Source: Sulfurimonas hydrogeniphila | GTDB taxonomy: Bacteria; Campylobacterota; Campylobacteria; Campylobacterales; Sulfurimonadaceae | Reading direction: 5' to 3' | NCBI RefSeq assembly: GCF_009068765.1 | Contig: NZ_CP035534.1 | Location: 1,550,001 to 1,614,000 of the forward strand | Length of the DNA: 64,000 nt | Shown: in pieces, positions 19,365 to 24,956 of the stretch | Layout of the letters: the number at the start of each line of letters is the position of its first letter | Numbering within the stretch: the stretch's first letter is position 1 | Position numbers and translations under genes: made by a program | Notes under the pieces: model-generated | Seen by the model: only the letters and a program-made list of their open reading frames with translations | Told to the model about the DNA's origin: nothing | Database searches by the model: none

Positions 19365-20117
19365 ATGGAAAAACAAAAAGTAATAATAGTCGAAGATGAT
19401 GAAATCACATCACTTAACTTAAATATGTCTTTACAAAAGCACGGATACAGTGTGGTGGCGATGTGTGATAATGCTCCTATGGCAAAAAGTAAAATAGCTA
19501 CACACAATCCGGATGTCATTATTATTGATATCTCTTTACAAGAAAGCAATGACGGAATCGAACTTGCAAAAACTATAAAAGAAAAATATGATATTCCTTT
19601 TATTTATCTCACTTCGTACAGTGATGATGACATTATTGCCCAGGCAAAACTTACTGAACCTTATGGATATATTGTAAAACCTTTTGACCCCGGATCTCTG
19701 CATGCAACTATTCAAATGGCTTTGTTCAAATACCAACAGGAAAATGAGAGAAAAGAGAATATCAATTCACTCAAAGTAGATAAACTGAATCTTGAAAAAT
19801 TACTCTATTCCAAGCGTTCACAAGACAAACCAATTGTTCCGTTCGGGGGTGGTGATTACCATCTTGACATCAGTATATGCGAAACCTTTTACAAAGGGAA
19901 AAAAATCAAGCTTACAAAAAAAGAAAATGCTTTTTTACGCCTTCTTGTTGCCCAACTTGGTTTGGTTGTATCATTTGAGCAGGCAATGAACTATGTCTGG
20001 GACGAGCACGGTGCTACAGAAAACAGCGTCAGAACACTGGTTTGGAGACTGCGGAATAAACTTGAAACAGACATTATAAAAAATGCCTCAGGAATTGGCT
20101 ATTATATAGAAGATTAA
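19365..20117 (+). CDS. OmpR-type response regulator
   Basis: A 250-residue regulator. The receiver domain (about 1-120) has the acidic pair in IIVEDDE, the phosphoacceptor Asp in VIIIDISL, and the Thr and Lys switch residues in YLTSYS and YIVKPFDP. A C-terminal winged helix (about 165-250) includes KLTKKENAFLRLL and the recognition region SVRTLVWRLRNKLE. Its stop overlaps the hybrid kinase stop (shared TTAA, convergent), so the two are candidate partners by proximity, although they are not co-transcribed. Confidence 0.93.
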   Translation: MEKQKVIIVEDDEITSLNLNMSLQKHGYSVVAMCDNAPMAKSKIATHNPDVIIIDISLQESNDGIELAKTIKEKYDIPFIYLTSYSDDDIIAQAKLTEPYGYIVKPFDPGSLHATIQMALFKYQQENERKENINSLKVDKLNLEKLLYSKRSQDKPIVPFGGGDYHLDISICETFYKGKKIKLTKKENAFLRLLVAQLGLVVSFEQAMNYVWDEHGATENSVRTLVWRLRNKLETDIIKNASGIGYYIED

Positions 20118-22408
20118 TTTATTTTAATGGATGCAATTTTTTCTTCTATTTCTTTCAGGGTTTGCTCATAATTATAGTCTGCATTTTCAAGTTTTGCCAT
20201 TCTTTCCATTTCAGTTGCATTTTTTTGTAAAATTTCAATTCTGAAATTTCCACTTGACCCTTTAATACTATGAGCCAGAAGTGCTGTTTTTTTATAATCT
20301 CTTGCAGCAACCGCTTTTGCCAAGTCACTCAGGGTCGTTTTCATTTTTTTGATAAAAAGTGTCAAAAGCATAATAAGTTCATCTTCATTCAACATCAACT
20401 CTTTCATCAGTTTCTTCGCATCCAACCCTGTAATCTTTTGGTTGTCAGCGGAAGATACATCTGTTTTATCTTCCTGTATAACACTGTAGGAATCCAGTTT
20501 CAGATATGCCATAAAAACACGTTCCAACTCTTTTAAAACCAGAGGCTTCCCTAAAAATGTGTCAAATCCGTTCAGTAAATCTCTCTCTTTACTCCCCTTT
20601 AACACATTGGCCGTCAGGGCAGAGATTGGCGTATGACTTAAACCGTTTTTTTCCTCGTATTCGATAATTTTAATGACGGCATCTGTTCCGTTCATAACAG
20701 GCATCTGTTCATCCATAAGAATCAAATCATATTTGTTTTTTTGATACAGTGCAACCGCTTCTTTTCCATTGTGAGCCAAATCAAATGTCAAGCCATATCT
20801 GTTGAGGACAATCTTCATTAATTCCTGGTTTGCCTCATTGTCCTCAGCAACCAGGATATGTCCCTTAAATCTATTGGATATTTTTTTATTATGAATTAAT
20901 GATAATTCAGGGTTGAGCAGCTCATTGAAATGTTTATGAATTTTTGAACAATACAGAGGAAAACTCATCGCTTTGATGTGCGCATAGTGTTCATATGTAT
21001 CATACTCTTTGCTCATAAGTGCTATATATTTTTTCCCAGAGTAGATAATCTCTTTTTGTATGTTTATGTCACATGTCTCATGTACAAATATACATATGTC
21101 AAACTCGCAGTCCAGCGTCTCTACAACACTGATGTTCATCGCAAAAATTTCAGCATACTTCAAAAAGGATTCATGTCGGAAATCCAAAACTTTGTCTTTT
21201 GCATAAAGTACCATTTTTAGTTTCTGAAAATCACTGATATCTTTAAATACCTGACACTCATCATTTTGCACTGCAACAGGAATATCCAGCCAAAAGGTAC
21301 TGCCCTCTCCCACCTGTGATTCTACATGAACACTTCCATTCATTAACTCTGCAAGCTGGTGTGATATACACAGACCCAGGCCCGTTCCCTCTTTGTTGTT
21401 GTTTTGGCTAAACTGTGCCTGTGTAAATGCTACAAATATACTTTCCATATCTTTTTCGTTTATGCCGACTCCGTTGTCTGTTACACTGATTTTCAGTTGG
21501 TTGTCATGACAGCTTGCTTCAACCTTTATCACACCGCCGTCGGGTGTAAATTTTATGGCATTACTTAAAAAATTTGAGACTATCTGTTGAATTCGAAGGA
21601 CATCGCCAAACAACTCTTTTGGAATACGAGGATCTATAAATGAAGTAATGGTAATATTTTTTGAATTTGCACTGGCTACAAAAAGCTCCATCGTATGGCT
21701 TAGCTCTTCATGCAGAGAAAAAATCTTTGGTTCAATCGTAAACTCACCGCTTCTCAGTTTTGAAAAGTCCAAAATATCATTGATAATACTCAGTAAGTTT
21801 TCGCCGCTGCTTAATATAATATCTAAATAATTTCTATGTTTATTGCTTATATCTTCATCCATCAAAAGGTTTACAAAGCCTAAAATAGCATTTAAAGGCG
21901 TGCGAATTTCATGAGACATATTGGAAAGAAAGTACTCTTTTGCCTGAGAAGCACGCAGTGCTTCCTGTCTTGCGTCAATAAGCTTTTGAAAAATACTGTC
22001 TGTATAATACTTTAAAATACCTTTAAAATTTTTATCAAAAATATACGAAATTTCTTCAAAGATCTCTTTTGAATTTATCTTCGCATCATAAGTGAACTCT
22101 ACCATAGAACGACGAAAATTACTGCATATCTCAAACAACTCGTCAGCACTGATTTCACGATGTTTCAAATAGGCCAAAAACTCCTGCATAACAGGACAGT
22201 CACCGATATCTCTCTCACCCGCGATTACACCCATAAAGTAGTCAAATACACCGCTGGCATATTTTTCTATAAATTCTTTTTCATCTATCTTATGTAAATG
22301 AAGGATCTCTTTTACAGAAGCATACGATATCCATTGCTGTAATATATCTGACTTTGAAGATACAAATACGCCTTTTACTGCTCTTAAATGGATGCTGCCT
22401 TCTTTCAT
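20114..22408 (-). CDS. Cytosolic hybrid sensor histidine kinase (HisKA-HATPase-REC-HPt)
   Basis: A 764-residue multistep phosphorelay kinase. The N-terminal about 145 residues are helical and could be a globin-coupled-like sensor, but I cannot assign them firmly. HisKA carries H166 in SNMSHEIRTPLNAILG; the ATPase has the N box (LSNAIKFTPDG) and GTGLGLCIS. A degenerate middle region is followed by a true receiver (ILVAEDNEANQ, phosphoacceptor in LILMDEQMPVMNG) and an HPt domain with LLAHSIKGSSGNF near 715. No membrane helix is seen, so input must be cytosolic or come through the membrane protein encoded 10 bases upstream, the pseudo-deformylase fusion, with which it forms an operon. Confidence 0.92.
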   Translation of the reverse strand: MKEGSIHLRAVKGVFVSSKSDILQQWISYASVKEILHLHKIDEKEFIEKYASGVFDYFMGVIAGERDIGDCPVMQEFLAYLKHREISADELFEICSNFRRSMVEFTYDAKINSKEIFEEISYIFDKNFKGILKYYTDSIFQKLIDARQEALRASQAKEYFLSNMSHEIRTPLNAILGFVNLLMDEDISNKHRNYLDIILSSGENLLSIINDILDFSKLRSGEFTIEPKIFSLHEELSHTMELFVASANSKNITITSFIDPRIPKELFGDVLRIQQIVSNFLSNAIKFTPDGGVIKVEASCHDNQLKISVTDNGVGINEKDMESIFVAFTQAQFSQNNNKEGTGLGLCISHQLAELMNGSVHVESQVGEGSTFWLDIPVAVQNDECQVFKDISDFQKLKMVLYAKDKVLDFRHESFLKYAEIFAMNISVVETLDCEFDICIFVHETCDINIQKEIIYSGKKYIALMSKEYDTYEHYAHIKAMSFPLYCSKIHKHFNELLNPELSLIHNKKISNRFKGHILVAEDNEANQELMKIVLNRYGLTFDLAHNGKEAVALYQKNKYDLILMDEQMPVMNGTDAVIKIIEYEEKNGLSHTPISALTANVLKGSKERDLLNGFDTFLGKPLVLKELERVFMAYLKLDSYSVIQEDKTDVSSADNQKITGLDAKKLMKELMLNEDELIMLLTLFIKKMKTTLSDLAKAVAARDYKKTALLAHSIKGSSGNFRIEILQKNATEMERMAKLENADYNYEQTLKEIEEKIASIKIN

Positions 22409-22418
22409 TGTTATACCA

Positions 22419-23237
22419 TTATCCTACATGTAACAAAAAGTATGACGCAACTGTAATGACAAACAGTTTCACCAAAGATATTGCAGTTGTTCCGACAATA
22501 TTGCCCAATTGGCAACTACTGCATGCGACATAAAGTTTTCCTTCATACTGAGCATAAAAAAAGTAAACTATGTTTAACCCAAGGACTCCGTATATCGTAT
22601 AAAGTTGATATGTCCATAAAGTCTGTAACGTCTGCTCCTTATCAATAAAGAAAGATGCTACAAGCGGAAGAAGCATAAAAAACATAACGACATGTATGAG
22701 TTTCAAAATTTTGTCTCTGAAAAAGACCGTAGGACAGTAATCGGCATTTGTAGTATTTATACCATTTTCTAAATTTTTTTCAAACTTCTCTTTTTCTTCT
22801 TTGGACATTTTTTGCACAAAAGTAGCGCCAAAGGTATAGTCTATTTTTCGCTGAATTCTTACAGAAAAATCTCCACTTGCCTGCAGTGACTTATCATTTC
22901 CGTTTCTGTCTTGATAAACAACGCTGATAGTTTCAAACCGTTGTATCTGTGCTGTTTTTCCAGGATAGTACAGTGTTGATTCTGTAGCCGTGACAGTACC
23001 CTTATGGTTTATCAACCGGGGGTTTATCATCTCTATCAGCTTCCCTTCATCATCTTTTACAATAATCAGGTTATAGTAACTCCCTATCTGATAAGCACTC
23101 AAAGCATCCAAATTATTTTCATTGATAGTATCTTTGAGATCTTCTATCAAGGCAAACAATTCATCATCAAATTTTCTTATGTCTACAGCGTATTCTATAC
23201 TCAGGGGCGTAGGATGCGTTATAATCTCTCTTACCAT
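22419..23237 (-). CDS. Catalytically dead peptide-deformylase homologue fused to a membrane domain
   Basis: Residues 1-145 follow the peptide deformylase fold: MVREIITHP, FDDELFALIEDL, then motif 1 as ALSAYQIG (Gln50 kept), motif 2 as ESTLYYPG instead of EGCLSxPG (metal-binding Cys lost), and motif 3 as QRKIDYTFG instead of QHEIDHLxG (both His ligands and the catalytic Glu lost). It therefore cannot bind the catalytic metal in the normal way. Residues 180-268 add three membrane helices, with CSSC at 239-242 between the second and third. The gene ends 10 bases before the hybrid kinase and is probably co-transcribed with it, suggesting a sensing or ligand-binding role. Automatic annotation would probably miscall it as deformylase. 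Confidence 0.8.
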   Translation of the reverse strand: MVREIITHPTPLSIEYAVDIRKFDDELFALIEDLKDTINENNLDALSAYQIGSYYNLIIVKDDEGKLIEMINPRLINHKGTVTATESTLYYPGKTAQIQRFETISVVYQDRNGNDKSLQASGDFSVRIQRKIDYTFGATFVQKMSKEEKEKFEKNLENGINTTNADYCPTVFFRDKILKLIHVVMFFMLLPLVASFFIDKEQTLQTLWTYQLYTIYGVLGLNIVYFFYAQYEGKLYVACSSCQLGNIVGTTAISLVKLFVITVASYFLLHVG

Positions 23238-23262
23238 TATTTTTTATACCTTATACACGAAA

Positions 23263-23293
23263 GAGTCTTGAATAAAATTTCAAGACTCTTCTT
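23263..23293 (-). terminator. Intrinsic terminator downstream of sqr and its small gene
   Basis: A perfect 12-bp stem AAGAGTCTTGAA / TTCAAGACTCTT with a short AT loop. It begins directly after the stop of the 58-residue gene on the minus strand, and is followed on that strand by a T-containing stretch. It separates the sqr transcript from the pseudo-deformylase/kinase operon. Confidence 0.7.
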
Positions 23294-23294
23294 G

Positions 23295-23471
23295 TTAATG
23301 ACTTTTACCTACAACTATAATCATTTTTATATTGATTATTATAAATCTGATAAACTGCCAGATTACACACGTACGCATTTTTCTAGCAAATGCCCCCGGT
23401 ATCATTGTTAATGTAAACTGATCATTCTTTTGAAAATTTACCTCTTCTTCAACATGTTTTACTTCGCTCAT
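23295..23471 (-). CDS. Small protein encoded directly downstream of sqr
   Basis: A 58-residue frame with an excellent ribosome binding site (GAGGAG, five bases before ATG). An acidic N-terminus (MSEVKHVEEEVNF) is followed by TMIPGAFARKMRTC and a hydrophobic, basic C-terminal half (WQFIRFIIINIKMIIVVG) that could associate with the membrane. It begins 15 bases after the sqr stop and ends at a terminator, so it is almost certainly co-transcribed with sqr. No family is recognised; a role in anchoring or regulating the quinone reductase is a guess from context. Confidence 0.65.
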   Translation of the reverse strand: MSEVKHVEEEVNFQKNDQFTLTMIPGAFARKMRTCVIWQFIRFIIINIKMIIVVGKSH

Positions 23472-23486
23472 AATATCTCCTCTTTT

Positions 23487-24956
23487 TTATTCTGGAATTA
23501 ATGTCCAACCTGGATTTAGTTTTGCTTTATAGATAAACAGATAGTGTAAAATATGTTTAATCCAGTGCCCAGCAAGACCTATTTCACCAAATGTATAGTC
23601 TGTATCACGCCCTGTTCCCGGATATTTTTCAAAATCAGGAACAACAGGATAGACTGTCATAGCAGCCGCAGTTCCGTCAAACAAACCTTTTCCGGCACTT
23701 GCAACACAGGCAGCACCCATTTCAGCCATTGACGCTTCATGCAGGTGGGCATTTTCGCCTTTTGTAATCATATCACAAACAGAGTGTGCAACCGCTTTTC
23801 CGATAATACCAGAAGGCATACCCGTTCTTGGAGGCGTCGGATTAATCGGTGTTCCGTTTGGTGATTTCATCGGTTTAGAGATAAGATGTGGCGGAGCAAA
23901 AGCAATACCTGCAGCAAACATATTTTTATAAGTAGGATTTTGGTATGTTCTTGGCCAGTCACTTGCTTTCCACTCTTCGTATGGCTTTGGCGTATAGTCC
24001 GCATCCACTTTCATGAAGCCGTTTGGAGCAAATACCGTATCAGTAATATCTTCACCGGCTTTGTTGTAGGCTTTTAAACCAACACCCGCAAAAGGAGGAA
24101 TAAGCATTGCAAAATCAAACTCTTCTTCACCAGTTGAACCGTCAAGCAGTTCATACTCAACTTTTCCGGCTTCTACTTTACTTGTATGTGCACCGATAAG
24201 CCAGTCAACATTTCTTTCGGCAAAAAGGGATTCTGCAAACAGTTTGGAAGAAACAACATAGCCGCCAACTTTCATATGCAGTCCGCCCATACCGAAGTCA
24301 CCTAAAAAAGATTCATTGGAAATCCATTTCATATCCGCCATGTCACGCACACCGGCTTTTCTTAATTCATGCTCAATATTGAAAATATACTCAAATGCAG
24401 CCCCCTGACATGTACACATTCCGTGTCCTGTTCCTATTAGGAATTTTTGACGGGTACCGCCTTTCATTTTTTCAATGGCTTCATTTAATTTTTCTGAAGC
24501 ATGGACTGCATGGTCAGCTGTACAGACAGAAACAGTATGCTCACCCAATTGACTACCTTCGCCTAAACCCGGAGTAGCTCCGAAATTCAGCTTTGGTCCT
24601 GTCGCATTGACAATATAATCATACTCTATATTTTCAGTCTGTCCTGCTTTGTCAGCACTTGTATACTCAATAGTCACAAAAGGTTTATCACTTGACTGCG
24701 AACCTTCCGGATTTAAAGAGAGCGCTTTTGCCTGACGATAATCAATACCGGCTTTTGCATAAACAGGCGCTAAATCAAATGTCACATCCTCTTTTTTCAT
24801 TTGGCCGACACCCACCCAGATGTTTGACGGAATCCAGTTCCACTTGGCATTTGGAGTGACAACAACAACTTCATGATCTGAGCCTAACCATTTTGCAGCG
24901 AATGTAGCTGTTGTATGACCAGCAACACCACCACCTAATACAACTAATCTTGCCAT
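23487..24956 (-). CDS. sqr: Sulfide:quinone oxidoreductase family flavoprotein
   Basis: A 489-residue FAD enzyme of the SQR family that oxidises sulfide to sulfur or polysulfide and passes electrons to the quinone pool at the membrane surface. The N-terminal dinucleotide fold reads LVVLGGGVAGHTTATFAA; a second nucleotide segment reads YDYIVNATGPK. Candidate redox cysteines occur in GMCTCQG (near residue 180) and in GAACVAS towards the C-terminus. The C-terminus (GLAGHWIKHILHYLFIYKAKLNPGW) is the amphipathic membrane-contact region seen in SQRs. The start ATG has GAGGAAA upstream. Several SQR types coexist in Sulfurimonas; I cannot assign the type from sequence alone. It is followed by a 58-residue small gene. 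Confidence 0.88.
   Translation of the reverse strand: MARLVVLGGGVAGHTTATFAAKWLGSDHEVVVVTPNAKWNWIPSNIWVGVGQMKKEDVTFDLAPVYAKAGIDYRQAKALSLNPEGSQSSDKPFVTIEYTSADKAGQTENIEYDYIVNATGPKLNFGATPGLGEGSQLGEHTVSVCTADHAVHASEKLNEAIEKMKGGTRQKFLIGTGHGMCTCQGAAFEYIFNIEHELRKAGVRDMADMKWISNESFLGDFGMGGLHMKVGGYVVSSKLFAESLFAERNVDWLIGAHTSKVEAGKVEYELLDGSTGEEEFDFAMLIPPFAGVGLKAYNKAGEDITDTVFAPNGFMKVDADYTPKPYEEWKASDWPRTYQNPTYKNMFAAGIAFAPPHLISKPMKSPNGTPINPTPPRTGMPSGIIGKAVAHSVCDMITKGENAHLHEASMAEMGAACVASAGKGLFDGTAAAMTVYPVVPDFEKYPGTGRDTDYTFGEIGLAGHWIKHILHYLFIYKAKLNPGWTLIPE

Follow-up and report, generated by a model that had tools for sequence, protein, structure and literature searches.

A membrane-joined, catalytically dead deformylase family linked to a sulfide:quinone reductase locus in Campylobacterota

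In a 64,000-nucleotide stretch of the Sulfurimonas hydrogeniphila genome (NZ_CP035534.1, positions 1,550,001 to 1,614,000 of the forward strand; hereafter the window), we identified a protein, here called P, in which a dead peptide deformylase (PDF) fold is joined to a membrane part that carries three cysteines. Loss of the active site is a trait of the whole family, and the dead deformylase is genuine and widely distributed within part of Campylobacterota. The most constant neighbour of P, more constant than the hybrid histidine kinase that follows it in the window, is an upstream gene for sulfide:quinone reductase (SQR). Shared presence and position, together with a small open reading frame that lies between the two genes (SM), tie P to SQR. 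We therefore give about even odds to the view that, in sulfur-oxidising Campylobacterota, P serves the SQR locus as a membrane accessory derived from a dead PDF. Its role is probably in sulfide metabolism rather than in the trimming of proteins. SQR, SM and P together form the system that merits study, and the kinase is a secondary part of the story.

Table 1 Features of the locus, in coordinates of the window.
Feature	Coordinates	Strand	Remarks
OmpR-type response regulator	19365..20117	plus	convergent to the kinase gene, with a 4-base overlap at the 3′ ends
Hybrid kinase, HisKA-HATPase-REC-Hpt, predicted globin-like N-terminal domain (1 to ~150)	20114..22408	minus	Pfam and model
P, 272 aa	22419..23237	minus	dead PDF domain (~3-150) and three-helix membrane part with Cys168, Cys239 and Cys242
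Hairpin between SM and P	23261..23290	minus	−17.8 kcal/mol, z −5.2
SM, 58-codon ORF, small protein with one hydrophobic stretch	23295..23471	minus	conserved behind SQR
Sulfide:quinone reductase (SQR), 489 aa, probably type IV	23487..24956	minus	match to 3hyv

An earlier, sequence-only reading of this DNA had traced a deformylase fold in P, and both sequence and structure comparison confirm it. Residues 3–149 match the Pfam model Pep_deformylase (PF01327) with E = 1e-27, the same call is made for 63 of 63 aligned family members including the window sequence, and the PHROGs match is to one general deformylase family; NCBIfam deformylase models match below their cut-offs (TIGR00079, 71 bits versus 103.95 needed). 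An AlphaFold2 model built from 63 sequences (pLDDT 83; pTM 0.52, which leaves the placement of the cysteines relative to the deformylase domain unfixed) resembles solved PDF structures with a Foldseek E value of 6.5e-12 to 2ew5 and a VIA Z of about 19 across about 142 residues, and retains the C-terminal helix of the fold (146–158). The same reading had reported that motif 2 (ESTLYYPG) has lost the Cys ligand and motif 3 (QRKIDYTFG) both His ligands and the catalytic Glu. Alignment to the intact deformylase of the same genome (L152:2841-3365, motifs EGCLSVP and QHEMDH) places these losses exactly there, with Cys replaced by Thr, His by Arg, Glu by Lys and the second His by Tyr, so that HExxH becomes RKxxY.

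These replacements are shared across the family. None of the four catalytic residues of PDF is left in 104 of 105 distinct P relatives, the exception (L117) keeping a single His. The position of the metal-ligand Cys holds Thr in 99 rows, Ser in 4 and Asp in 2, and the HExxH positions hold Arg130 in 102, Lys131 in 102 and Tyr134 in 101. PDF motif 1 (GxGLAAxQ) is altered as well: its first Gly is Leu in 92 of the 105 rows and Gly in none, the second has become Ala in 60 rows and remains Gly in 43, and the Gln is kept in 103. Recurrence across 105 distinct relatives shows that the changed motifs are more than a chance feature. P thus resembles PDF (PF01327; for example H. pylori 2ew5) in fold and in the positions Gln50, Glu86, Arg100, Gln129, Asp133 and Gly137, but differs in lacking the metal-ligand Cys, the His pair and the catalytic Glu, in its altered motif 1, in its added membrane part with three Cys and in its linkage to SQR. 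Arg, Lys and Tyr in place of the metal site, and the alteration of motif 1 (GIG), make formyl-peptide binding by P appear unlikely. Two deformylase structures contain hydrosulfide according to their titles (4az4 and 4al2); because P has no metal ligands, they offer at most a hint.

P is under purifying selection for something other than deformylase activity. We estimated dN/dS at about 0.1 (0.14 against relative L031, dS 0.48; 0.09 against L032, for which a dS of 1.74 is near saturation), and 21 polar, charged, Tyr or Cys positions are at least 97% conserved in the 105 rows. The residues that replace the catalytic set (Thr88, Arg130, Lys131 and Tyr134) are themselves nearly invariant, and such conserved substitutes together with the low dN/dS indicate that P is not decaying. 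That P is a functionless, decaying duplicate might be argued from the missing catalytic residues, from the intact deformylase elsewhere in the genome and from a Sulfurovum mangrovi relative annotated as two coding sequences, but purifying selection, the 21 conserved positions and retention across many genera and several families of Campylobacterota contradict this explanation, which we regard as almost certainly wrong. The same conservation bears on a further explanation, that Thr88, Arg130, Lys131, Tyr134 and Gln50 carry out new chemistry, without a metal, at the former active site. These five residues are as nearly invariant as those of an active or binding site would be; however, they suggest no substrate, and their conservation also fits anion binding or protein contact, so that new chemistry seems improbable to us. 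A contig scan with P as query, which extended beyond Campylobacterota, returned 95 relatives, of which 80 were kept; every title among these 80 that names a group names Campylobacterota, and one says only 'bacterium'.

The membrane part of P comprises three hydrophobic helices (about 173–194, 201–235 and 244–271). Cys168 lies just before helix 1 and is present in 103 of 105 rows, and Cys239 and Cys242, each present in all 105, lie between helices 2 and 3; the motifs are CPT and CxSCQ(I/L)GN. The three helices and the CSSC pair had been recognised in the sequence-only reading; the pair stands between the last two helices and not behind the third. By eye, P lacks a signal peptide and helix 1 opens with the charged residues RDK, and the deformylase domain and all three Cys therefore probably face the cytosol, a topology drawn from hydropathy and charge as judged by eye. 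One or two family members also match CrgA, GPI2 and PsiE weakly in Pfam (best E 0.00044), which we attribute to membrane composition. Three partial matches that might have represented a stand-alone membrane part (G057:C31, G057:C71 and G024:C100) begin no more than 90 bases from the edge where their contig starts and are more probably truncated genes. Searching plasmids for the membrane part returned one record, from Sulfurovum mangrovi (NZ_CP087125.1), which is labelled a plasmid yet has rpsI and rplM. In this record P is annotated as two 'peptide deformylase' coding sequences (L155:5497-6312), reflecting either a broken gene or a sequencing error.

The gene upstream of P encodes an SQR whose residues 3–423 align with the Aquifex aeolicus enzyme 3hyv (3.2e-45), the nearest solved structure. 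Its Cys residues at SVCTADHA, MCTCQGA and AACVASAG align with SICTAEHA, SCFGPA and AICIADFG of 3hyv, and the three Cys of SQR have a redox role. We take 3hyv to be a type I SQR. According to the available part of PMC4584964, types I and IV form one clade, no type I SQR occurs in any genome-sequenced member of the Epsilonproteobacteria, and all sequenced Sulfurimonas share a conserved type IV enzyme; the available part of PMC7952632 likewise describes type IV as conserved in 11 genomes. The SQR beside P is therefore probably of type IV, a label that stays only probable because, at E 1e-90, this SQR is missing from 4 of the 32 genomes that represent the window's genus. In this comparison it is the neighbour of P, and not P itself, that corresponds to the type I/IV enzymes, with three Cys common to both, whereas the locus encodes P and SM in addition.

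We scanned 397 Campylobacterota genomes, counting P matches down to 1.1e-67 (the next match being 2.6e-37) and SQR matches with E up to 1e-90. P is encoded at 87 loci, spread over 79 genomes, and SQR in 111 genomes, among them all 79 with P (Fisher p 1.4e-57 across the 397 genomes, with kinship ignored). At 71 of the 87 loci, P lies directly downstream of SQR, on the same strand and within 1 kb. The remaining 32 of the 111 SQR genomes have no P, and SQR does not need P there, a point against the accessory reading. The order SQR-SM-P recurs in 12 of 13 P loci examined from five other families (f4, f6, f7, f9 and f18), the exception being an f6 locus (L127) with no SQR. Flanking open reading frames around these loci differ in length among the five families, some being common within f6.

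The gap of about 250 bases between SQR and P contains SM, which is preceded by a ribosome-binding-site-like GAGGAG. Its consensus over 80 distinct sequences is ...TM.Pg.fa..mRTcviwQfiRFiiINiKMliVV.KSH, and no model in Pfam or NCBIfam matches it. Among 102 rows with at least 700 bases upstream of P, SM is present in 78 of the 78 that are SQR-linked, and it also stands behind SQR at 20 of 20 P-less loci, taken from 20 of the 32 genomes of that kind. Because SM follows SQR with or without P, the locus is best described as an SQR locus in which P is optional. The same arrangement is found in Sulfurovum mangrovi, where an SM relative annotated as 'hypothetical protein' lies between an 'FAD-dependent oxidoreductase' 80% identical to the SQR of the window and the two 'peptide deformylase' coding sequences. 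The deformylase enzyme docks near the ribosome exit, and P could on that model be a membrane-tethered helper of translation or insertion, its PDF fold holding nascent SM or SQR at the membrane. Retention of the fold, including the C-terminal helix, and the short, hydrophobic nature of SM would suit such a role; SM and SQR both occur without P, however, and we think a helper of this kind quite unlikely.

A hairpin separates SM from P. Within 55 nucleotides 3′ of SM, a fold under −8 kcal/mol is present in 77 of 80 loci with P, with z under −2 in 74 of 80 (single-base shuffles, 40 each), and as a control the same stretch folds under −8 kcal/mol in 17 of 20 P-less SQR loci. Its occurrence in P-less loci assigns the hairpin to the SQR-SM unit. 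The hairpin mostly lacks a T tract (at least five T in the next eight bases in 7 of 80 P loci), and its possible roles are to terminate, process or protect the message of SQR and SM. Should it end that unit, P may be transcribed apart from SQR, which somewhat weakens the accessory reading, and the control counts against an operon of all four genes, SQR, SM, P and the kinase.

Behind P, the window contains a hybrid kinase and a convergent regulator. The sequence-only reading had described a cytosolic hybrid kinase 10 bases after P, with no membrane segment of its own, and a convergent OmpR-type regulator, and domain matches and hydropathy (best 19-residue value 1.23) agree on each count. It had further proposed that the deformylase fold was reused as an input module for this kinase. 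Reuse of the fold in a membrane protein is borne out by selection and structure, but the role as kinase input is weakened, as the kinase is not constant. Linkage to kinases does exist among relatives: of 73 distinct SQR-linked rows with 1 kb or more of downstream sequence, 54 have the kinase as the next gene after P. None of 19 rows without SQR linkage has it in that position, and the four P-plus-kinase loci fetched from other genera (L112 and L115–L117) all belong to the window's own family. Kinase and regulator follow SQR-SM in two genomes without P (G109 and G222), and do so too in two genomes of genus g25 (G209 and G408), where P is of the second clade described below and lies some kilobases off. 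An obligate partnership of kinase and P was accordingly rejected, each occurring without the other. At one Sulfurimonas locus, a gene that by eye resembles a substrate-binding protein takes the kinase's place behind P (L072:6875-7858).

P might still act as a membrane sensor that feeds the kinase, relaying either ligand binding by the dead PDF domain or an alteration of its Cys. The 10-base spacing, the frequency with which the kinase follows P, the kinase's lack of a membrane segment and the hairpin before P, which would allow P and the kinase to share a transcript apart from SQR, all favour such a sensor. By contrast, no kinase stands behind P in any of the 13 loci from the five other families (two of which, L123 and L127, have less than 1 kb downstream), the kinase accompanies SQR-SM without P in G109 and G222, and it has a predicted globin-like domain of its own with two invariant Cys. 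On balance we judge the sensor unlikely.

The N-terminal 155 residues of the kinase have a helical, globin-like predicted fold (pLDDT 92). The model gives Z values of 14.1 to 3pmd, 13.7 to 3zta and 11.8 to 2bnl, to be read against the value of about 13 that helical folds reach by arrangement alone, and it has no Foldseek match at E ≤0.001; the sequence has no Pfam match and no convincing match of other kinds. Cys71 and Cys95 are present in 52 of 52 sequences longer than 700 residues, and His39 in 51 of 52. In its predicted fold the domain would resemble the RsbR N-terminal and non-haem globin-like domains (2bnl, 3zta and 3pmd), but unlike them it has two invariant Cys, is fused to a hybrid kinase and lacks a Pfam sequence match. 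A cytosolic thiol sensor would be the natural reading of this model, and the domain is a possible sensor of reactive sulfur or redox state. Kinase and regulator, joined to the SQR locus in part of its range, probably use the domain of the kinase itself for sensing; control of the SQR locus by the two is possible and need not involve P. A longer form of the kinase (about 884 residues) carries an insert that by eye resembles a PAS domain.

For P as an accessory of the SQR locus, the features above suggest a mechanism in which the cytosolic deformylase domain would serve for docking or ligand binding, with all three Cys at the cytosolic face of the membrane. P could sit beside membrane-bound SQR as a scaffold; alternatively, its Cys may accept, hold or report oxidised (sulfane) sulfur or thiol redox state. 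Handling of sulfane sulfur or redox state by these Cys is our leading guess, and it is context and conservation alone that suggest it. A more specific version, which we offer tentatively as possible but doubtful, is that P, SM and SQR join in a single complex where the Arg/Lys/Tyr/Thr site binds a sulfur anion or the tail of a partner and the Cys cluster takes the sulfane sulfur of SQR. Were it true, P would be a candidate carrier for sulfur after this SQR in Campylobacterota.

Pseudoenzymes are already a known kind of protein, and a dead, membrane-joined deformylase linked to SQR is undescribed in the literature searched: we found no description of a family-wide dead deformylase with a membrane domain tied to sulfide oxidation. 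P and SM go unmentioned in the available parts of two Sulfurimonas papers, PMC4584964 and PMC7952632, and the word deformylase is absent from that of PMC4584964. Given that Pfam calls a deformylase in every aligned member and RefSeq names the Sulfurovum mangrovi relative 'peptide deformylase', P is being misread. The available part of PMC7952632 describes this bacterial group as predominant in deep-sea hydrothermal environments and the functions of the different SQR types as still enigmatic. The SQR locus has two uncharacterised membrane partners, P and SM, one of just 58 codons, and they make the question of SQR-type function testable by gene deletion.

Phylogenetic analysis sets the 105 P rows apart from two intact deformylases on a long branch (midpoint root, with a warning of long-branch effects). 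The deepest P branch (f18) and the rows from f4, f6 and f7 are SQR-linked without the kinase, L127 excepted. Four rows of the window's own family, three kinase-linked (L115–L117) and one SQR-less (L118), cluster with the f4, f6 and f7 rows (support 90/91, unstarred), away from the remaining own-family P rows. On this tree, then, the kinase link does not trace back to one clean gain, and P or the whole locus may have been exchanged. Most of a second P clade (26 rows) lies apart from SQR, L101 and L106 being beside it, and this clade counts against reading P as an SQR accessory. Of 24 SQR-less P rows with enough upstream sequence, 14 have genes for a DsrE-like and/or a carboxymuconolactone-decarboxylase-like protein no more than 2.5 kb away; this favours the accessory reading, and DsrE proteins are often sulfur carriers. 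Second-clade P genes (for example L087:2505-3481 and L102:5012-5992) often come after genes of both these kinds, and the neighbouring DsrE-like protein has, by eye, a signal-peptide-like start.
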